A stretch of DNA of 64,000 bases from Paraglaciecola sp. L1A13 (GTDB taxonomy: Bacteria > Pseudomonadota > Gammaproteobacteria > Enterobacterales > Alteromonadaceae): positions 3,348,001 through 3,412,000 of the forward strand of contig NZ_CP047024.1 of assembly GCF_009796745.1 (NCBI RefSeq), in the 5' to 3' direction. Shown piece after piece: positions 15,936 through 58,510 of this stretch. Below the pieces are notes generated by a model. The model ran no database searches and was not told the origin of the DNA. It saw nothing but the letters and a program-made list of their open reading frames with translations. The number at the start of each line of letters is the position of its first letter. Position 1 is the first letter of the stretch. The translations under genes and the position numbers were made by a program.

Positions 15936-16012
15936 TCCCCCTTAGCTCAGTTGGTTAGAGCGACGGACTGTTAATCCGCAGGTCCCCCGTTCGAATCGGG
16001 GAGGGGGAGCCA
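15936..16012 (+). tRNA. tRNA-Asn (anticodon GTT), copy 1
   Basis: A complete 77-nt cloverleaf can be drawn: acceptor TCCCCCT / AGGGGGA, D-arm with AGCTCAG...TTGGTTAGAG, anticodon loop CTGTTAA, T-arm CCCCG-TTCGAAT-CGGGG, discriminator G and encoded CCA. The anticodon GTT reads Asn codons. Confidence 0.97.
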
Positions 16013-16105: not shown

Positions 16106-16182
16106 TCCCCCTTAGCTCAGTTGGTTAGAGCGACGGACTGTTAATCCGCAGGTCCCCCGTTCGAATCGGGGAGGGGGAGCCA
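16106..16182 (+). tRNA. tRNA-Asn (anticodon GTT), copy 2
   Basis: This is identical to copy 1 over all 77 nt and starts exactly 170 bp after it. The sequences between and around the copies differ, so only the tRNA itself is conserved. No second promoter is evident, so both are probably processed from one transcript. Confidence 0.97.
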
Positions 16183-24613: not shown

Positions 24614-24660
24614 AAATGAGGACGACCTCATCCCTCGCCTTTTATCTGGGACGACCCAAC
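24614..24660 (+). promoter_or_regulatory. Guanidine-II riboswitch (mini-ykkC)
   Basis: Two short hairpins each close on an ACGA tetraloop: ATGAGG-ACGA-CCTCAT (24616-24631) and TGGG-ACGA-CCCA (24647-24658). This is the defining pattern of the mini-ykkC / guanidine-II class, which binds free guanidine. The ACCT in the first hairpin (24625-24628) can pair with the AGGT ribosome binding site at 24672-24675, suggesting translational control. It lies 20 bp before a guanidinium exporter gene. Confidence 0.92.
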
Positions 24661-24680: not shown

Positions 24681-24995
24681 ATGAACTGGGTTATTCTTTT
24701 AATCGCGGGCTTATTTGAAGTTGTGTGGGCGATTGGTCTTAAATACAGCGATGGTTTCAGTAGGTTTTGGCCGTCTTTATTTACCTTAATTGCCATGGCT
24801 ATTAGTTTTGGTCTGTTGAGTGTCGCCATGAAAACACTTCCCGCTGGTACTGCTTATGCTGTCTGGGTTGTAGTTGGGCTCATCGGCACGGCTATCCTAG
24901 GTATGATTTTGTTCAATGAGCCAGTAACGGTACTACGGATATTAAGCCTATTGACCATTACGTTAGGTGTGATTGGCTTAAAATTAAGTAGTTAG
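24681..24995 (+). CDS. gdx: Guanidinium exporter Gdx (SugE), SMR family
   Basis: This 104-aa four-helix small multidrug resistance protein starts [20 protein letters not shown]. Glu13 is the conserved proton/substrate residue, and the WAIGLKYS and [16 protein letters not shown] segments are typical of the Gdx/SugE subtype rather than EmrE. Gdx exports guanidinium in exchange for protons as a dual-topology dimer. The guanidine-II riboswitch directly upstream supports that function. Confidence 0.95.
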
Positions 24996-51813: not shown

Positions 51814-52415
51814 GCTCGATAAAACACCACTTTGCGTTTGAGAATAACTCAAGCAAGAGTCAGTCATGCATCAGAATTATATATGCACTGTTATTTCTAT
51901 TATGAATAATGCCTTAGACGTTACCTGAGTAGCGACTATAGGAAGACAGGAATGACTAAAGTGTTTTGAATAAGACATGGATCTGATTTAGAAAATATAT
52001 CACTGTGGATACCAGTAACCTGCCATACCCTACCCGCCCTGGAAGATTTCTATACGAATAGCAAACCATGTTAGTGCAGTAAGTGCGAGCCTGCCTTTTC
52101 GATGTATTTAACTCAGAACTTGCGAATTTTATGCTTCAATAAGTGCTTCACCATTCCTAGGACATATAGGTAGTTTACAAAGTAAAAACTGACGCATATT
52201 ACCGATTAAAGCTAAAGAGAGAGCTACACATAAAGAGGAGGTGCCATATACTCTTGGGTTTTAGCTGTAAAATGGAGGGAACGATTTTGAATAGGCTAGA
52301 TTAATTGCATACAGCTCTGTTGATTTATAGCTAGATCGTTGAAACCCCAAAGCAGAGGGCATTTTAGTTGTTGCCCCTGAAAGCAAAATCACGCGCCGCA
52401 TCAAGATGATGCTGT
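51814..52415. other. Gene-free region between ligase and transglycosylase genes
   Basis: About 600 bp. I find no open frame with family features, no RNA gene and no clear terminator. A strong ribosome-binding-like AGAGGAGG near 52235 leads only into short frames. Confidence 0.4.
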
Positions 52416-53057
52416 CTACGTAAACAGGCGCATAAACCAGCCTTTTTCTAATTCATCTCTGCAACCTTTAAGCTGTGTCGCGTAACGTAAAGAACGGGCT
52501 TTTACCGTTTTAGCGACTCTTTGCAGCCAACGTTTCTTGTGGTGGCTCTTACGTTTATAACCGCCCCAGCCTTCGTGGTAATTTAGATATTGCGCTTCTG
52601 CATCCCATTTCGATACACGGTTAATTTTATGAGTCTTACTAATAAACCACCCCATAAAATCCATAGCGTCGTCAAAGTCTTCTCGATCAGCCCAACTATT
52701 TCCCGTTTCTCGCTTGTAATCCGCCCAAGTTGGCGTTTTTGCTTGCGAATAACCGTAAGCACTGCTTACGCGCCCCCAGGGTATCAAACCAAAAAACACA
52801 TAATCTTTTGGCGGTAGCGCATCAGCTCTAAATGAGCTTTCTTGATACATCATTGCCATAGGCACATGCATAGGTACGCCCCACTTGTCGCTCATTTCAT
52901 CGGCCGTATCAAACCAATGGCGCTTCTCGAGAAAGATTTCACAAATATTACTGATATTTTTAGGGGGCGTTGTCGTGCACCCACCAAGCCACGTTACCAA
53001 TAAAAGTATCAGTGAAATACGACCAACGAATGGATATGTAGATAAATTGCGAGACAT
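52416..53057 (-). CDS. Lytic-transglycosylase-like lipoprotein (SLT domain)
   Basis: The 213-aa protein has a signal with lipobox LGGC (Cys27) and an SLT-type lysozyme fold. The probable catalytic Glu73 is in MYQESSF, followed by YGYSQAKTPTWADYK and YLNYHEGWGGY. It probably cleaves peptidoglycan at the outer membrane inner face. It is transcribed away from the repeat array. Confidence 0.88.
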   Translation of the reverse strand: MSRNLSTYPFVGRISLILLLVTWLGGCTTTPPKNISNICEIFLEKRHWFDTADEMSDKWGVPMHVPMAMMYQESSFRADALPPKDYVFFGLIPWGRVSSAYGYSQAKTPTWADYKRETGNSWADREDFDDAMDFMGWFISKTHKINRVSKWDAEAQYLNYHEGWGGYKRKSHHKKRWLQRVAKTVKARSLRYATQLKGCRDELEKGWFMRLFT

Positions 53058-53174
53058 ACGTCACTCTCGTCTATGGTTCGAATAAATGGTTTCGCGATGT
53101 CTTACCTCGCGATCTGGATGAGCAATACTAACCTGTTCGACTGGAATATGGTAAGTTTGTGTATAAATTCACCC

Positions 53175-53200
53175 AAAAAAATTTGCCGAATTTAATCGGC
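53175..53200 (-). terminator. Minus-strand terminator between the array and the transglycosylase gene
   Basis: On the minus strand GCCGA-N6-TCGGC is followed by AAATTTTTTT. It would stop minus-strand transcripts leaving the array before the transglycosylase gene. Confidence 0.55.
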
Positions 53201-53260
53201 GAGTAACGTCATTCACGGCTAATTTTACAAATCTGTTTATTAAACGGAACTAATAATTAA

Positions 53261-53366
53261 GTGCTGAGTCATATTTAATGTGTGTTTTAATTTTTGTGTG
53301 TTTCCGAATAAACGTTTAGTTTAGCCCAGCTCTTTAGCTGGGCTTTTTTTTGCCCGTAATTGGCTA
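53261..53366 (+). repeat. Array unit 1 (degenerate 5' part)
   Basis: The palindrome is reduced to its right arm (GAGTCATAT) and the linker is diverged, but the terminator (53333-53361) is perfect. A class B spacer follows. Confidence 0.85.
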
Positions 53367-53477
53367 AGAACAACGAGGTATTTTCATCACCAATCAGTGT
53401 GGTCTGCATGTCATGCGGATCACTCAACTACTTATTTCATAGCCATAATTAACTAATTCACTTTTTTTAATTTATGT

Positions 53478-53584
53478 GTGAACTTAATGGCATATGACCC
53501 GGTCATATCTAGCGTGTGTTTTAATTTATGTGTGTTCCAAAAAGACTTTTAGCCCAGCTCTTTAGCTGGGCTTTTTTTTGCCCG
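53478..53584 (+). repeat. Array unit 2
   Basis: Palindrome ATATGACCCGGTCATAT at 53492-53508. The linker lacks one T compared with most units. Terminator 53551-53579. A class A spacer follows. Confidence 0.95.
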
Positions 53585-53706
53585 TGATTTACTGATAATT
53601 TTGATGTGGTTACGTTACCAAGCACTAGGGTATTCCTAATATGAAGCTCAATCGAACGGCTGATTTATGCTCATGACTTACTCATTCACTTTTTTTTCAT
53701 TAATAT

Positions 53707-53815
53707 GTGAACTTAATCAGCTATGACCCGGTCATATCTAGCGTGTGTTTTAGTTTATGTGTGTTTCCTGAATATACTGTTAGCCCAGCTCTTTAGCTGG
53801 GCTTTTTTTTGCCCG
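53707..53815 (+). repeat. Array unit 3
   Basis: Palindrome TATGACCCGGTCATA at 53722-53736. The last part of the linker differs from other units (CTGAATATACTGTT) and is one base longer. Terminator 53782-53810. Class A spacer follows. Confidence 0.95.
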
Positions 53816-53936
53816 TGATTTACTGATAATTTTGATGTGGTTACGTTACCAAGAACTAGGGTATTCCTAATATGAAGCTCAATCGAACGGCTGATTGATG
53901 CTCATGACTTACTCATTCACTTTTTTTAATTTATGT

Positions 53937-54044
53937 GTGAACTTAATGGTATATGACCCGGTCATATCTAGCGTGTGTTTTAATTTATGTGTGTTTCCAA
54001 AAAGACTTTTGGCCCAGCTCTTTAGCTGGGCTTTTTTTTGCCCG
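53937..54044 (+). repeat. Array unit 4
   Basis: Palindrome ATATGACCCGGTCATAT. The first base of the terminator stem is G instead of A (54011), shortening the stem to 8 bp. Class A spacer follows. Confidence 0.95.
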
Positions 54045-54166
54045 TGATTTACTGATAATTTTGATGTGGTTACGTTACCAAGAACTAGGGTATTCCTAAT
54101 ATGAAGCTCAATCGAACGGCTGATAGATACTTATGACTTACTCATTCACTTTTTTTTCATTAATAT

Positions 54167-54274
54167 GTGAACTTAATCAGCTATGACGCGGTCATATTTA
54201 GCGTGTGTTTTAGTTTATGTGTGTTTCCAAAAAAACTTTTAGCCCAGCTCTTTAGCTGGGCTTTTTTTTGCCCG
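54167..54274 (+). repeat. Array unit 5
   Basis: Palindrome TATGACGCGGTCATA with a changed centre. Terminator 54241-54269. Class A spacer follows. Confidence 0.95.
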
Positions 54275-54395
54275 TGATTTACTGATAATTTTGATGTGGT
54301 TACGTTACCAAGAACTAGGGTATTCCTAATATGAAGCTCAATCGAACGGCTGATTGATACTTATGACTTACTCATTCACTTTTTTTCATTAATAT

Positions 54396-54503
54396 GTGAA
54401 CTTAATCAGCTATGACCCGGTCATATCTAGCGTGTGTTTTAGTTTATGTGTGTTTCCAAAAAAACTTTTAGCCCAGCTCTTTAGCTGGGCTTTTTTTTGC
54501 CCG
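54396..54503 (+). repeat. Array unit 6
   Basis: Palindrome TATGACCCGGTCATA. Terminator 54470-54498. From here the spacer switches from class A to class B. Confidence 0.95.
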
Positions 54504-54624
54504 TAAATTGCTACGAACGACAAGGTCTTTTCATCACGAACCAGTGTGGTATCTATGTCATATAGATCACTCAACTACTTATTTCATAGCCATAATTAAC
54601 TAATTCACTTTTTTTAATTTATGT

Positions 54625-54732
54625 GTGAACTTAATGGTATATGACCCGGTCATATCTAGCGTGTGTTTTAATTTATGTGTGTTTCCAAAAAGACTTTTAG
54701 CCCAGCTCTTTAGCTGGGCTTTTTTTTGCCCG
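54625..54732 (+). repeat. Array unit 7
   Basis: Palindrome ATATGACCCGGTCATAT. Units 7 and 8 and the spacers before them are nearly identical over 229 bp, a sign of recent duplication. Terminator 54699-54727. Confidence 0.95.
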
Positions 54733-54853
54733 TAAATTGCTACGAACGACAAGGTCTTTTCATCACGAACCAGTGTGGTATCTATGTCATATAGATCACT
54801 CAACTACTTATTTCATAGCCATAATTAACTAATTCACTTTTTTTAATTTATGT

Positions 54854-54961
54854 GTGAACTTAATGGTATATGACCCGGTCATATCTAGCGTGTGTTTTAA
54901 TTTATGTGTGTTTCCAAAAAGACTTTTAGCCCAGCTCTTTAGCCGGGCTTTTTTTTGCCCG
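54854..54961 (+). repeat. Array unit 8
   Basis: Almost identical to unit 7. The terminator (54928-54956) has one T-to-C change in its right arm (AGCCGGGCT), giving an A-C mismatch: the only arm mismatch within the array. Confidence 0.95.
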
Positions 54962-55081
54962 TGATTGGCTACGAACAACAAGGTATTTTCATCACCAATC
55001 AGTTTGGTATCCATTCCATATAGATCACTCGACTACGTTTTCGTAGCGATAATGAAATAATTTATTTTTTTGCACTTATAA

Positions 55082-55189
55082 GTGAACTTAATGGCATATG
55101 ACTCGGTCATATCTAGCGTGTGTTTTAGTTTATGTGTGTTTCCAAAAAGACTTTTAGCCCAGCTTTTTAGCTGGGCTTTTTTTTGCCCG
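55082..55189 (+). repeat. Array unit 9
   Basis: Palindrome ATATGACTCGGTCATAT. The sequence before the core is the palindrome CACTTATAAGTG. Terminator loop TTTT instead of CTTT (55156-55184). Confidence 0.95.
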
Positions 55190-55310
55190 TAATTAGCTGC
55201 GTACGACAAGGGATTTTCGTCTCCAATCAGTTTGGTATCCATGCCATATAGATCACTCGACTACGCTTTCGTAGCGATAATGAAATAATTTATTTTTTTT
55301 GCACTTATAA

Positions 55311-55418
55311 GTGAACTTAATGGCATATGACCCGGTCATATCTAGCGTGTGTTTTAGTTTATGTGTGTTTCCAAAAAGACTTTTAGCCCAGCTTTTTAGC
55401 TGGGCTTTTTTTTGCCCG
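55311..55418 (+). repeat. Array unit 10
   Basis: Close to unit 9, with palindrome ATATGACCCGGTCATAT and terminator loop TTTT (55385-55413). The spacer before it holds a CTACG-CTTT-CGTAG hairpin, where the previous spacer has CTACG-TTTT-CGTAG. Confidence 0.95.
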
Positions 55419-55540
55419 TAATTAGCTGCGTACGACAAGGGATTTTCGTCTCCAACCAGTGTGGTCTCCATCTCATATGGATCACTCGATCCACTCATTT
55501 TATAGCAATGATTAACTAATTCATTTTTTTGCATTTGTAA

Positions 55541-55648
55541 GTGAACTTAATCAGGTATGACACGGTCATACCTAGCGTGTGTTTTAGTTTATGTGTGTTT
55601 CCAAAAAAACTTTTAGCCCAGCTCTTTAGCTGGGCTTTTTTTTGCCCG
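55541..55648 (+). repeat. Array unit 11
   Basis: The palindrome is AGGTATGAC-ACG-GTCATACCT: both arms changed together relative to the ATATGAC/GTCATAT form. Terminator 55615-55643. Confidence 0.95.
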
Positions 55649-55770
55649 TGATTGGCTACGAACAACAAGGTATTTTCATCACCAATCAGTTTGATATCCA
55701 TCTCATATGGATCACTCGATCCACTCATTTTATAGCAATGATTAACTAATTCATTTTTTTGCATTTGTAA

Positions 55771-55877
55771 CTGAACTTAATCAGGTATGACACGGTCATA
55801 TTTAGCGTGTGTTTTAGTTTATGTGTGTTTCCAAAAAAACTTTTAGCCCAGCTCTTTAGCTGGGCTTTTTTTGCCCG
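55771..55877 (+). repeat. Array unit 12
   Basis: Palindrome GTATGAC-ACG-GTCATAT. The T run after the terminator stem has seven instead of eight T (55845-55872). A diverged class A spacer follows. Confidence 0.95.
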
Positions 55878-55998
55878 AGATTTACTGATGATTTTTGATT
55901 TAGTTACGTCACCAAGGACTAGGGTATTCCTAATATGAAGATCAATCGAACGGCTGATTTAAGCTCATGACTTACTCATTCACTTTTTTCATTAATAT

Positions 55999-56106
55999 GT
56001 GAACTTAATCAGGTATGACGCGGTCATATTTAGCGTGTGTTTTAGTTTATGTGTGTTTCCAAAAAGACTTTTAGCCCAGCTCTCTAGCTGGGCTTTTTTT
56101 TGCCCA
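55999..56106 (+). repeat. Array unit 13
   Basis: Palindrome GTATGAC-GCG-GTCATAT. Terminator loop CTCT (56073-56101). A class C spacer follows. Confidence 0.95.
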
Positions 56107-56227
56107 TAAATTGCTGCGAGCTACAGCATTTTTTCCTCACCAAGCATGTTGTGTTCCTATACTGTAGAGCCATCGAACGCATCATTATTTACCCATGGCT
56201 CACGCATTCTTTTTTTTGCATTAATAT

Positions 56228-56332
56228 GTGAACTTAATCAGGTATAAAACGGTCATAATTAGCGTGTGTTTTAGTTTATGTGTGTTTCCAAAAGACTTTT
56301 AGCCCAGCTCTTTAGCTGGGCTTTTTTTTGCG
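56228..56332 (+). repeat. Array unit 14 (last, partly decayed)
   Basis: The palindrome is weakened (GTATAAAACGGTCATAA), and the linker lacks one A. The terminator (56301-56329) is still perfect. The usual GCCCG after it is replaced by unrelated sequence. Confidence 0.9.
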
Positions 56333-56830
56333 TTAATAACAGACCTCATAAACATTTTTACCGCAGTCATAAAAACTCGGATATAGACAAAAACGTATTG
56401 TCGATCAGATGGTTAAAAAGTACACCTAAAGAAATTTCCGTATATTTTTATCCCATTATCAAAAACTTTAGCCGCATCTCTATCTTTCCTGTAAGCGAAA
56501 TATCTAATATTATCGATCTGCTAAAGCCAGATATACTATGACCAGTATTAACGCTAATGACGTCGGAACATTATGAACATGTTGCGTGCCCATGGACGGG
56601 ACATTTGAGTATTAACTGGACCGACGTTGTTTAGAACAAAGTGGTTACATCAGCCGAACAATTAATTCGATATTGTGTGCCGCTCGATGTCGGTTTAAGT
56701 TCAGGAAATGTGCCTAAATTGGTCTTGGGTATAGAGCGAAATGCTAGGCAGTCTGTTTTGAAGGAAAAGTGAGAAATCAGTTACGTACGTACACCAGTGG
56801 TATCTAAAACGGGTACCCGGCGGTCAAACG
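56333..56830 (+). pseudogene. Decayed coding-like region downstream of the array
   Basis: About 500 bp without an intact gene. One frame is open to 56541 (it includes WLKSTPKEISVYFYPII); another, from about 56570 to 56772, reads EHYEHVACPWTGHLSINW before a stop and then continues NKVVTSAEQLIRYCVPLDVG. This looks like remnants of one or two broken genes, but I do not recognise a family. Confidence 0.3.
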
Positions 56831-56863
56831 AAAAAATGCCGCTCACCTTAAGTGAACGGCATT
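56831..56863 (-). terminator. Terminator of gshA
   Basis: On the minus strand AATGCCGTTCAC and GTGAGCGGCATT form a stem with internal mismatches, followed by TTTT, 28 bp after the gshA stop. Confidence 0.8.
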
Positions 56864-56890
56864 AGGTAACATCATGATAAACAAGTTTAT

Positions 56891-58510
56891 TTAGAATTTA
56901 TCAAATTGATAGGTAAAGTAGTCGGTTAAGAATTTATCAAAACTGACGATATCAGACTGTTCAATCTGATGCTGGGCATCTAAAGAACTAAGCGCATGCT
57001 TACGAAGCATATCAGCATCAAAAAACTGATATTTTTCCTCACTCAAGCTTTGCTTATAACGTGCTGCCAATTCAATACCTAAGGCTCCGTTGTCTTGATT
57101 TTTGCTCAATAATGTCTCAAGGATCTTAGCTGAAGGCGTCAACTCAGGATTAAGTATCTTCTGCCATTCATGCTCAACTGCCAAACTATATTCGGCAACG
57201 TCTACGTTAGAATCAAGTATTTTGGCAACTTGCCGCATACCAGTGAATAATTCTGTAGCCCATTCAGCCATCGGTATCGATTGGCCACCTTTAGACAAGG
57301 TTAGAGCCGGATCACGGCCGTGATCGACCACAGCTCGAAGATTGGACTCAGTTTCTCGATAAGAATCCGACGTCATATCTGCGCTTGGCATCACTAAACA
57401 ATATAATAAAAACGCATCGAGAAAGAAAAACTGATTCCGCTCAATACCTAATTCGCTAAAGGGGTTTACATCTAATGCTCTGACCTCGATATATTCAACA
57501 CCACGAGCATTCAACGCATCCGTAGGCTTTTCCAAAGGTTTAGTGGGTTGTTTTGGACGTATCGGTGAGTAAAGCTCATTCTCAATTTGCAGCACATTAC
57601 TGTTGAGTTGCTGATAATGTCCGTCTTTTTTAGTGGCATATTTTTCAAAAATTTCAGATGGAGTACTAATAGCTTTACGCAATGAAGCAATATAAGTATC
57701 TACTTGGTTGTAACACGTCATCAAACCGGATTGAGCACTGTTTGTATACCCCAAGTCGCTCATACGCAAAGAAGTAGCATACGGTAAGTATAAAGACCCT
57801 TTTCCGATAGTTTTAAAAGGTAGAGTGGTGGTTTTACCCTTAATAAACGAACTACATAAAGCCGGTGACGCACCATATAAATATGGGATTAACCAACAGA
57901 AACGGCGATAGTTCCTGATAAGTGCAAAATAAGCAGCTGACTTAGTATCCTTGTTATTTTCAGTTCCTTCGACCTTATTGAGCCATAACTGCCAGAAGTC
58001 ATCTGGCAAAGAATAGTTGAAATGCACACCAGCAATTGCTTGCATCATACTACCGTAACGGTTCTTTAGTCCCTCTCGATACAAGCTTTTCATTTTGCCA
58101 ACATTGGATTTTCCAAACTGGGCAATCGGGATTTCGCTTTGATCATCAATGTAGCAAGGCATACTCATAGGCCATAAACATTCGTCACCTATGTTTGCTA
58201 AAGCAAATTTATGTACGTCACGTAATTGACCTATGGTTTTATCCACATCCCGCTCTGGGGGAGTAATAAACTCCAAAAGCGACTCTGAAAAATCGGTAGT
58301 GATATACTCATGTGTCAACGCAGCGCCTAACTTTTCGTTGTGGGGCGTTTGGGCTAACTTACCATTAGGTTGAATACGCAGCGCTTCGCGTTCTATTCCG
58401 TGGTTTATTCCTACCAGCGTCGAGGCAAGATCGTCACCTGCTAAAATAGCTAAACGCTCGCTAAAATCTTTATCTAATGTCTGCAAAATAAATTCCAATA
58501 TAGTCAGCAA
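56891..58510 (-). CDS. gshA: Glutamate-cysteine ligase
   Basis: GshA joins glutamate and cysteine, the first step of glutathione synthesis. The 539-aa protein has the proteobacterial GshA features GINHGIEREALRI (34-46), TDFSESLLEFITPP (72-85) and YIEVRALDVNPFSELGI. The start region (MLTILEFILQ) is not conserved, so the exact start could be a little further in. Confidence 0.95.
   Translation of the reverse strand: MLTILEFILQTLDKDFSERLAILAGDDLASTLVGINHGIEREALRIQPNGKLAQTPHNEKLGAALTHEYITTDFSESLLEFITPPERDVDKTIGQLRDVHKFALANIGDECLWPMSMPCYIDDQSEIPIAQFGKSNVGKMKSLYREGLKNRYGSMMQAIAGVHFNYSLPDDFWQLWLNKVEGTENNKDTKSAAYFALIRNYRRFCWLIPYLYGASPALCSSFIKGKTTTLPFKTIGKGSLYLPYATSLRMSDLGYTNSAQSGLMTCYNQVDTYIASLRKAISTPSEIFEKYATKKDGHYQQLNSNVLQIENELYSPIRPKQPTKPLEKPTDALNARGVEYIEVRALDVNPFSELGIERNQFFFLDAFLLYCLVMPSADMTSDSYRETESNLRAVVDHGRDPALTLSKGGQSIPMAEWATELFTGMRQVAKILDSNVDVAEYSLAVEHEWQKILNPELTPSAKILETLLSKNQDNGALGIELAARYKQSLSEEKYQFFDADMLRKHALSSLDAQHQIEQSDIVSFDKFLTDYFTYQFDKF

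Follow-up and report, generated by a model that had tools for sequence, protein, structure and literature searches.

MicA is a small RNA (sRNA) which is conserved in Enterobacteriaceae and controlled by σE (PMC4618604; PMC2956633), and it lowers the synthesis of OmpA (PMC2956633). A review of 2015 mentions one partial BLAST match of MicA in Lactobacillus (PMC4618604), and a paper of 2025 proposes a MicA homologue in Bordetella which is not raised by the loss of RseA (PMC12235514). In E. coli, the genes are arranged as luxS(−), micA(+), gshA(−). Sibling sRNAs, including csRNA, Qrr and OmrA/B, appear with 2–6 copies in the table of a 2014 review (PMC4211561), and a transcription-start study of Alteromonas reported 127 chromosomal sRNAs and raised rpoE, with no gshA-linked RNA mentioned in its main-text passages (PMC5864184). 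We have now analysed a tandem array of 14 units beside gshA in Paraglaciecola sp. L1A13, located within a stretch of 64,000 nucleotides of contig NZ_CP047024.1 (positions 3,348,001 to 3,412,000; referred to as the window, whose numbering is used unless genome positions are indicated). We consider with high confidence that the sequence of the array represents tandem sRNA genes with σE-type promoters. The locus as a whole is probably best explained by a tandemly amplified σE-dependent sRNA, a functional counterpart of MicA, which represses TonB-dependent receptors; this estimate refers to the best account of the locus and not to all its clauses together.

The 14 head-to-tail units occupy 53247–56329 with a period of 228–231 bp. 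The same spacing separates the 14 terminator anchors (53324 to 56302), and Tandem Repeats Finder returned a single array at 53268–56331 (period 229, 13.4 copies, 87% matches). This is in agreement with the 14 copies of about 229 bp given in a preliminary description of this DNA, which had placed the array start at 53260; the array begins at 53247 with its first promoter. When the complete genome (4.97 Mb, single contig) was searched at the DNA level, these 14 copies were found and none elsewhere. The mean pairwise identity among the units is 94% in the RNA part, 86% in the promoter part and 73% in the 13 inter-unit spacers. The spacers (53352–56229, about 128 bp each) form two families along the array and a singleton, and the identity of spacers 6 and 7 indicates a recent duplication.

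The motif GAACT-N17/18-TCATA, which is of the σE (RpoE) type, was found in all 14 units, the order being GAACT, 17 or 18 bases, TCATA, 6 bases and the RNA start. The published σE consensus is GGAACTTTT at −35 and GTCAAA at −10 (PMC1804206). Upstream of the rpoE gene, GAACTT-N16-TC is present in 21 of the 22 genomes of the genus (TCAA in 20, TCCA in one), the remaining one being cut by a contig end. The boxes alone are common, since GAACT-N17-19-TCATA matched 35 times genome-wide (14 matches are the array units) and the reversed control pattern also 35 times, so that the weight lies on their constant position in each unit. Among 65 complete units of this genome and its congeners, GAACT forms the −35 box in 63 and TCATA the −10 box in 52, the others having TCTTA, TCTGA, TCCTA, TCAGA or TCGTA; these units were found by a pattern which itself demands promoter and terminator, and the linker-only search described below is free of that bias. 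Outside arrays, all 21 fetched loci detected with the covariance model R1, which was built from the RNA part alone and contains no promoter, carry GAACT-N15-19-TC just upstream, versus 12 of 2142 control windows taken from these loci (L123–L143; 19 loci of other genera and two congener singletons). A σ70 promoter scan of 52400–57000 gave two sites, none of them inside the array, versus 13.6 in shuffled sequences, and σ70 promoters were rejected for the units. The earlier statement that no convincing −35/−10 pair precedes the units thus holds for σ70 and fails for σE. We infer from the σE-type boxes that the units would be transcribed by RpoE.

In E. coli micA, which was used as a control, the annotated first base lies 6 bases after TCTGA in GAACT-N17-TCTGA. 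With the +1 spacing taken from this gene, the array RNA is predicted to start at GUGUG and to be 66–72 nt long, instead of the approximately 100 nt assumed earlier. It would open with GUGUGUUUUAGUUUAUGUGUGUUUCC, a mostly unstructured seed. The RNA part reads GTGTGTTTTA(A/G)TTTATGTGTGTT(T)CC with small variants, which is followed by a short variable stretch and then by the terminator stem. In every unit, the terminator consists of a 9-pair stem, a 4-base loop and a T-run. GGGC is followed by 8 T in 13 of the units and by 7 T in unit 12, as the range of 7–8 T reported previously implies; the first T closes the ninth pair, leaving 7 (6) free. In the 65 pattern-found units, the T-run after GGGC, stem T included, has 8 residues in 54 units, 7 in 5, 9 in 5 and 6 in one. 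Both stem exceptions noticed previously were seen again: the stem of unit 4 opens with a G-T pair where the others have A-T, and a single mismatch occurs in unit 8. Just 5′ of the −35 box, four units carry TTTTTTTAATTTATGTGTG, which nearly duplicates the 3′ half of the linker (53459, 53918, 54606 and 54835).

On both strands of 52400–57000, 25 terminator-like sites were found, compared with 3.7 (standard deviation 1.8) in shuffles, and in the fold of a typical unit RNA the terminator is the sole centroid helix and the 5′ part is open; an extra helix is possible in unit 1 and in one unit of the congener G007. When 32 chosen distinct RNAs were aligned, 97.2% of 287 stem cells were paired, two-sided changes occurred in 22 cells versus 6.9 in shuffles, and the covariation score was 0.292 versus 0.150. 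The number of stem pairs with two-sided changes (4 of 9 versus 3.1 in shuffles) showed no excess. A long U-tailed intrinsic terminator of this kind is characteristic of Hfq-dependent trans-acting sRNAs, and the array RNAs may use Hfq. In the array, the gathering score was not reached by any Rfam family. The names below threshold (Betaproteobacteria toxic sRNA, anti-hemB, suhB/mmgR, RprA, PrrF and others) were all under their cut-offs and were discarded as terminator-and-U matches. None of the 138 Rfam matches obtained for 53200–56400 (E up to 5) was GcvB, to which the linker had been compared; the likeness is limited to the G/U-rich linker and amounts to resemblance only.

The units, all on the + strand, are located as follows. 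Unit 1 (53247–53351), the nearest to the transglycosylase gene, has GAACT-N17-TCATA at 53247–53273 and a predicted RNA of 72 nt at 53280–53351, and is without the palindrome discussed below. Unit 2 (53480–53579), with GAACT-N18-TCATA and a one-base deletion, has its predicted RNA at 53514–53579. A promoter and a predicted RNA were likewise assigned to unit 3 (53709–53810, RNA 53743–53810), unit 4 (53939–54039, RNA 53973–54039), unit 5 (54169–54269, RNA 54203–54269), unit 6 (54398–54498, RNA 54432–54498), unit 7 (54627–54727, RNA 54661–54727), unit 8 (54856–54956, RNA 54890–54956), unit 9 (55084–55184, RNA 55118–55184), unit 10 (55313–55413, RNA 55347–55413), unit 11 (55543–55643, RNA 55577–55643), unit 12 (55773–55872, RNA 55807–55872, with the T-run shorter by one) and unit 13 (56001–56101, RNA 56035–56101). 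Unit 14 (56230–56329, RNA 56264–56329) has kept the promoter boxes and its palindrome is degraded.

The family is widespread in the genus. At the DNA level, nine congeners (G002, G003, G004, G006, G007, G008, G009, G013 and G015) had strong matches (E below 1e-9), and a search of named genomes with the linker pattern matched six stretches, all from Paraglaciecola. Arrays or array pieces, some of them split by contig ends, lie at the gshA locus in G015, G007 (10 units), G006, G002, G009 and G008, and dispersed copies occur in G003. In G013 (L041, contig C2 near 165600) and G004 (L045, contig C1 near 4639000), arrays were found with neither gshA nor the transglycosylase gene in the fetched 11–13 kb, which suggests that arrays also arose in or moved to other places. 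The preliminary description had reasoned that decay of the terminator in related genomes, with the rest conserved, would speak against sRNA genes. A search with the linker only, in the window and 20 congener stretches, yielded 70 sites (eight more with gaps or at edges were set aside), four of which are chance matches in the spacers of the array itself. Among the true ungapped linker sites, 64 of 66 have both promoter and terminator; at random positions, 137 of 6275 were promoter-like and 72 of 6275 terminator-like. The decay named as a refuting condition was thus not seen, and the sRNA reading is not refuted by it. The terminator accompanies 65 of the 70 sites, and four of the misses are the chance sites; one of the 70 sites lies inside a triplicated linker in G009 and one has a broken T-run.

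The search with R1 gave at least two matches in each of the 16 genus genomes of the family sample and revealed relatives with variant seeds such as GTGTGTTCTAGTTATTGTGTGTTTTCCCTGG in other genera. At E up to 0.01, R1 matched 169 of 295 genomes, many weak matches among them possibly being chance terminator matches. In the genus g6, whose genomes have 2–3 Mb, a related RNA with a σE-like promoter (GTGTATGTGTTTTATAGTGTGTTCC...) was seen at four loci (L125, L132, L133 and L136) without gshA or the transglycosylase gene.

The array of strain L1A13 is flanked on the left by a divergent lytic transglycosylase gene (SLT_4; 52416–53057, − strand; Pfam PF19489, E 3.7e-77) and on the right by gshA, encoding glutamate-cysteine ligase (56891–58510, − strand; Pfam PF04262, E 1.2e-166), which is convergent with the array. 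Both flanks are conserved in other genera, and 16 of the 21 R1 loci outside arrays lie between these two genes. Among the matches listed, 30 of the 45 genomes of other genera with both an R1 match and gshA have the match adjoining and convergent with gshA, 13–165 nt from the end of the gene. The convergent arrangement next to gshA is shared by the array in the window and by E. coli micA. The same holds for 6 of the 9 genus genomes without an array at the gshA locus, again among the matches listed. These counts omit seven matches in six genomes (G229, G078, G099 twice, G160, G065 and G242) whose gshA is not among the matches listed and, on purpose, the array genomes G000, G002, G006, G007, G008, G009 and G015; G005 was scored as non-adjacent although its match and gshA are on different contigs. 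The array copies very probably descend from a gshA-linked sRNA of the family.

MicA itself was not recognized by sequence. The best score of the Rfam model RF00078 in the array was 21.3 bits (E 4.2, unit 1) with a cut-off of 41, and for 20 loci not in the array, 18 from other genera and two from congeners, the model gave no match at E up to 0.5, while the positive controls E. coli and L173 scored 83.9 and 83.0 bits. Membership in the MicA family by sequence was therefore rejected. On the other flank, the transglycosylase gene stands in the place of luxS. As the RNA fails the MicA model, we regard it as a positional and regulatory counterpart and not as a proven homologue of MicA. When 30 fetched loci were scanned for σE promoters beside gshA, candidates were found in family f20 (G375, G342, G390 and G359, and further off in G054), and σE-like candidates whose seeds differ were found in G089 and G023. 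The fetched loci of families f11, f12, f15, f16 and f25 had none in the 300 bases next to gshA. These negative results weigh little because the scan missed the true MicA of L173 (−35 GAAACTT). The candidates L151, L152, L164 and L170 (f20) and L169 (G089) are σE-like, convergent with gshA and different in their seeds, and some of them have TCCCTG or CCCCTGG in common with MicA and with the RNAs of Alteromonadaceae (compared by eye). They may represent an old σE-dependent sRNA at gshA. The locus is a test case for two histories: MicA being older than Enterobacteriaceae, or σE-dependent sRNAs arising there more than once.

Predicted targets were sought among the TonB-dependent receptors, a class which also includes the SusC-like outer-membrane transporters. 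The genome contains 67 genes with the receptor plug domain. When the genome was scanned for sequences complementary to the 3′ part of the linker, with two mismatches at most, 49 matches were obtained, 15 of them in the array, versus 42 with the reversed control. Four of the 34 matches outside the array are on the sense strand 141–161 bases upstream of a receptor plug domain (genome positions 651515, 1889061, 3909624 and 4116449; compared by eye). A start codon was assigned by a fixed rule to 66 receptor genes, the one without a start being dropped, and 523 other genes from 43 sampled stretches of the same genome served as the background. RNAduplex energies of the linker with the start regions had a median of −16.2 kcal/mol for the receptors and −12.0 kcal/mol for the others (p 1.8e-11), and of −8.25 for antisense windows; the difference in medians of −4.40 was reached by none of 100 shuffled linkers. 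Many receptor start regions read GGAACACACATG or near it. The top enriched 6-mers at receptor starts were ACACAC and CACACA (each in 11/66 versus 1/523), and ACAC within −20 to +3 was found in 31/66 receptors versus 32/523 others (p 1.8e-16; 30/63 once similar windows had been clustered), its occurrence being highest immediately ahead of the start codon. ACAC is no general export signal, as it occurs in 7/114 genes with a crude signal peptide versus 25/409 others. In the best receptor (L216, genome position near 651515), a duplex of 14 + 10 bp at −30.0 kcal/mol covers the Shine-Dalgarno sequence and AUG. A probable porin gene, labelled so from its look alone, carries AGGACACACACATG (duplex −21.8 kcal/mol); searches of Pfam, NCBIfam and PDB sequences gave nothing for it.

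The receptor signal was also sought in other genomes. In G101, which has a relative of the RNA beside gshA, the energy test (p 0.0015) and the ACAC test (p 1.1e-3) agree. In G300, ACAC is enriched (7/30 receptors versus 5/111, p 3.8e-3). The receptors used were 30 of 37 in G101 and 30 of 69 in G300, against backgrounds not cleared of receptor genes. In G354, whose gshA locus showed no such RNA, ACAC was found in 0/6 receptors, too few to weigh. We consider it moderately likely, from the complementarity at their starts, that TonB-dependent receptors are the main targets. The suggestion of the preliminary description that the units form a sRNA family with a U-tailed terminator and a G/U-rich, probably target-binding linker is supported by the stem covariation, the conservation in congeners and other genera and the complementarity of the linker to start-codon regions.

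The proposed mechanism starts from a single sRNA gene between the transglycosylase gene and gshA, which would have been kept in other genera of the family and amplified here, each copy being a separate transcription unit for a trans-acting sRNA of approximately 67 nt. Envelope stress would free σE and all copies would be transcribed together. The seed would then pair with the GGAACACACAUG-type motif at the ribosome-binding site and start codon of many receptor mRNAs, and probably also with the porin-like mRNA, and this pairing would block translation and lower the outer-membrane protein load. With 14 copies, a high dose, sufficient for dozens of targets, would be reached quickly. Tentatively, and with slightly less than even confidence, we suggest that the gshA locus, which has MicA in enterobacteria, has a different σE-dependent sRNA in Alteromonadaceae, with a seed that reads a shared start-codon code of the receptors (GGAACACACAUG), and that the amplification of this sRNA in Paraglaciecola to up to 14 independent genes may provide a dosage-driven, class-wide shut-off under envelope stress.

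Several observations weigh against this reading. Start codons were picked by a simple rule. Shuffled linkers favoured the receptors as well (mean difference −1.76), and at a cut-off of −11 kcal/mol the real linker reached 58/66 receptors whereas the shuffles reached 51.1 on average and 59 at most, which means that part of the receptor signal is composition. The energies in G300 were no better for receptors (p 0.59; 13 of 60 shuffles reached the value), and in 400 kb of G007 a single one of the 11 receptor rows, which represent 8 distinct genes, had ACAC, versus 15/267, with energies alike (p 0.56). The evidence for receptors as targets is thus strong in the own genome and carries over only in part. 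In 15 of the 45 other-genus genomes, none of the R1 matches listed is located beside gshA. The CA-rich motif could in truth be paired by another G/U-rich sRNA, for instance GcvB, for which the genome was not searched. Sequence analysis shows the array, its promoters, the covariation of the terminator, the synteny and, in the own genome, the complementarity to receptor starts, whereas transcription by RpoE, the 5′ ends of the RNAs, the use of Hfq, repression, dosage and descent from the single gene are inferred.

In a rival explanation, the units are σE-driven sRNA genes with other main targets, a few mRNAs such as cstA or a porin mRNA, and the CA-rich receptor motif belongs to another regulator such as a GcvB-like RNA. 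The strongest predicted duplex among the 523 non-receptor genes, that of a CstA-family gene (Pfam CstA; L279, genome position near 1209210, + strand), reaches −33.4 kcal/mol, which exceeds the best receptor value, and the 5′ region of this gene would pair with both halves of the linker. The negative energy test in G300 and the negative sample from G007 point in the same direction. We nevertheless consider this explanation unlikely, as ACACAC and CACACA, the 6-mers with the highest enrichment at receptor starts, are perfectly complementary to the linker and the L216 duplex extends over both the Shine-Dalgarno sequence and AUG.

Much less probable is an array which acts mainly as a decoy, its promoters titrating σE RNA polymerase or its RNAs sponging Hfq, with no specific mRNA targets. 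The presence of 14 σE-type promoters within 3.1 kb and of a U-tailed terminator, the usual Hfq site, on every copy would suit such a role. However, the linker is among the best-kept stretches across the congeners, and one class of genes is enriched in sequences complementary to it. Moreover, the linker is kept, in variant form, in the single-copy relatives of other genera, where titration cannot explain its upkeep.

A repeat maintained at the DNA level, whether a satellite, a protein-binding array or a remnant of a mobile element, with incidental terminator and palindrome, is hardly likely. The head-to-tail arrangement with a unit-size period and the two main spacer families would be expected of such a repeat, and so would the palindrome, with arms of at least 6 bp in 12 of the 14 units. 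This inverted repeat spans the −10 box and lies in promoter DNA, not in the RNA. Arms of at least 6 bp are present in only 2 of the 51 congener units, and in units 1 and 14, where the palindrome is missing or broken, the promoter boxes are intact. The preliminary description had placed a palindrome in every unit, which is true of 12, and had read it as a 5′ hairpin of the RNA; that hairpin was rejected on account of the promoter location and the absence from 49 of the 51 congener units. The same absence argues against a DNA-level role, as do the promoter and terminator accompanying the linker at 64 of 66 sites, the terminator covariation and the syntenic single relatives in other genera. An origin from a mobile element or phage was rejected as well: the array had no plasmid match and one exact pattern had no viral-contig match, a phage collection not having been searched. 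The palindromes of units 2–13 (53480–56101) have arms of 6–9 bp, e.g. TATGAC-NCG-GTCATA, and unit 11 has the longest (9 bp, over the promoter) and a compensated change. The species-specific palindrome is possibly the operator of some regulator.

A micropeptide starting from the ATG in UUUAUGUGUGUUUCC is scarcely credible. An ATG lies within the RNA part in 61 of the 65 units, and the commonest frame has 12 residues (19 units). The micropeptide was rejected since the reading frames are not kept among the units (lengths of 4, 5, 7, 8, 12 or 13 codons, no stop inside the RNA in 15 units and no ATG in 4), no Shine-Dalgarno sequence precedes the ATG (by eye) and unit 2 has its one-base deletion.

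Elsewhere in the window, a Guanidine-II riboswitch (24614–24658, + strand; Rfam RF01068, 40.7 bits) lies just upstream of a 104-aa open reading frame (24681–24995) which looks like a small multidrug-resistance-type transporter, and two tandem tRNA-Asn(GTT) genes are present at 15936–16012 and 16106–16182 (+ strand).

No report of this sRNA family was found in the full-text literature searched, a scope which leaves out most subscription journals. The nearest described system is MicA (SraD, RF00078), which resembles the array units in its length of about 70 nt, a σE promoter with similar boxes and spacing, the convergent location beside gshA and the intrinsic terminator (PMC4618604; PMC1804206). 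The array differs from MicA in its unrelated seed (compared by eye), in being tandem instead of one gene, in having a transglycosylase gene and not luxS as the neighbour, and in its predicted targets, TonB-dependent receptors instead of ompA. RybB and VrrA are, to our knowledge, single genes which are not linked to gshA. Both share with the array RNA a σE promoter and outer-membrane mRNA targets (PMC1804206 for RybB; PMC2628432 for VrrA). Their seeds differ from that of the array RNA, and an Rfam search of the array (E up to 5) returned neither name. The Listeria LhrC sRNAs are similarly induced by envelope stress and are described as five almost identical copies, lhrC1-4 being in one locus, but they are driven by LisRK, unlike the σE-type promoters found here (PMC4132741). 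The 14 copies of the array exceed the 2–6 siblings of the 2014 review table (PMC4211561). ChvR of Caulobacter also represses a TonB-dependent receptor by base pairing, but it is described with one target, ChvT, and is under ChvI-ChvG control (PMC6237742).

In its design, the array is comparable to the FopS family of Bacteroides thetaiotaomicron, whose 14 paralogous sRNAs bind near the start codons of SusC-like transporters and repress translation (PMC11697453). FopS belongs to Bacteroidota, its genes are described as 9 intergenic, 4 antisense and one derived from a 3′ untranslated region with no tandem array, its promoters are canonical σABfr promoters and its members are bound by RbpB (PMC11697453); the likeness lies in the design. 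Complementarity of the seed to many transporter starts, as in FopS, was found strongly in the own genome and also in G101, as a motif but not in energy in G300, and not in the G007 sample. The array offers a testable sRNA arm of the σE response in marine bacteria with dozens of TonB-dependent receptors, and its 14 separately promoted and terminated genes provide a direct handle on why sRNA genes multiply, be it for dose, speed or noise. If our reading is true, the array would have arisen in convergence with FopS and its 14 members, an sRNA and its target class co-evolving in receptor-rich marine bacteria.

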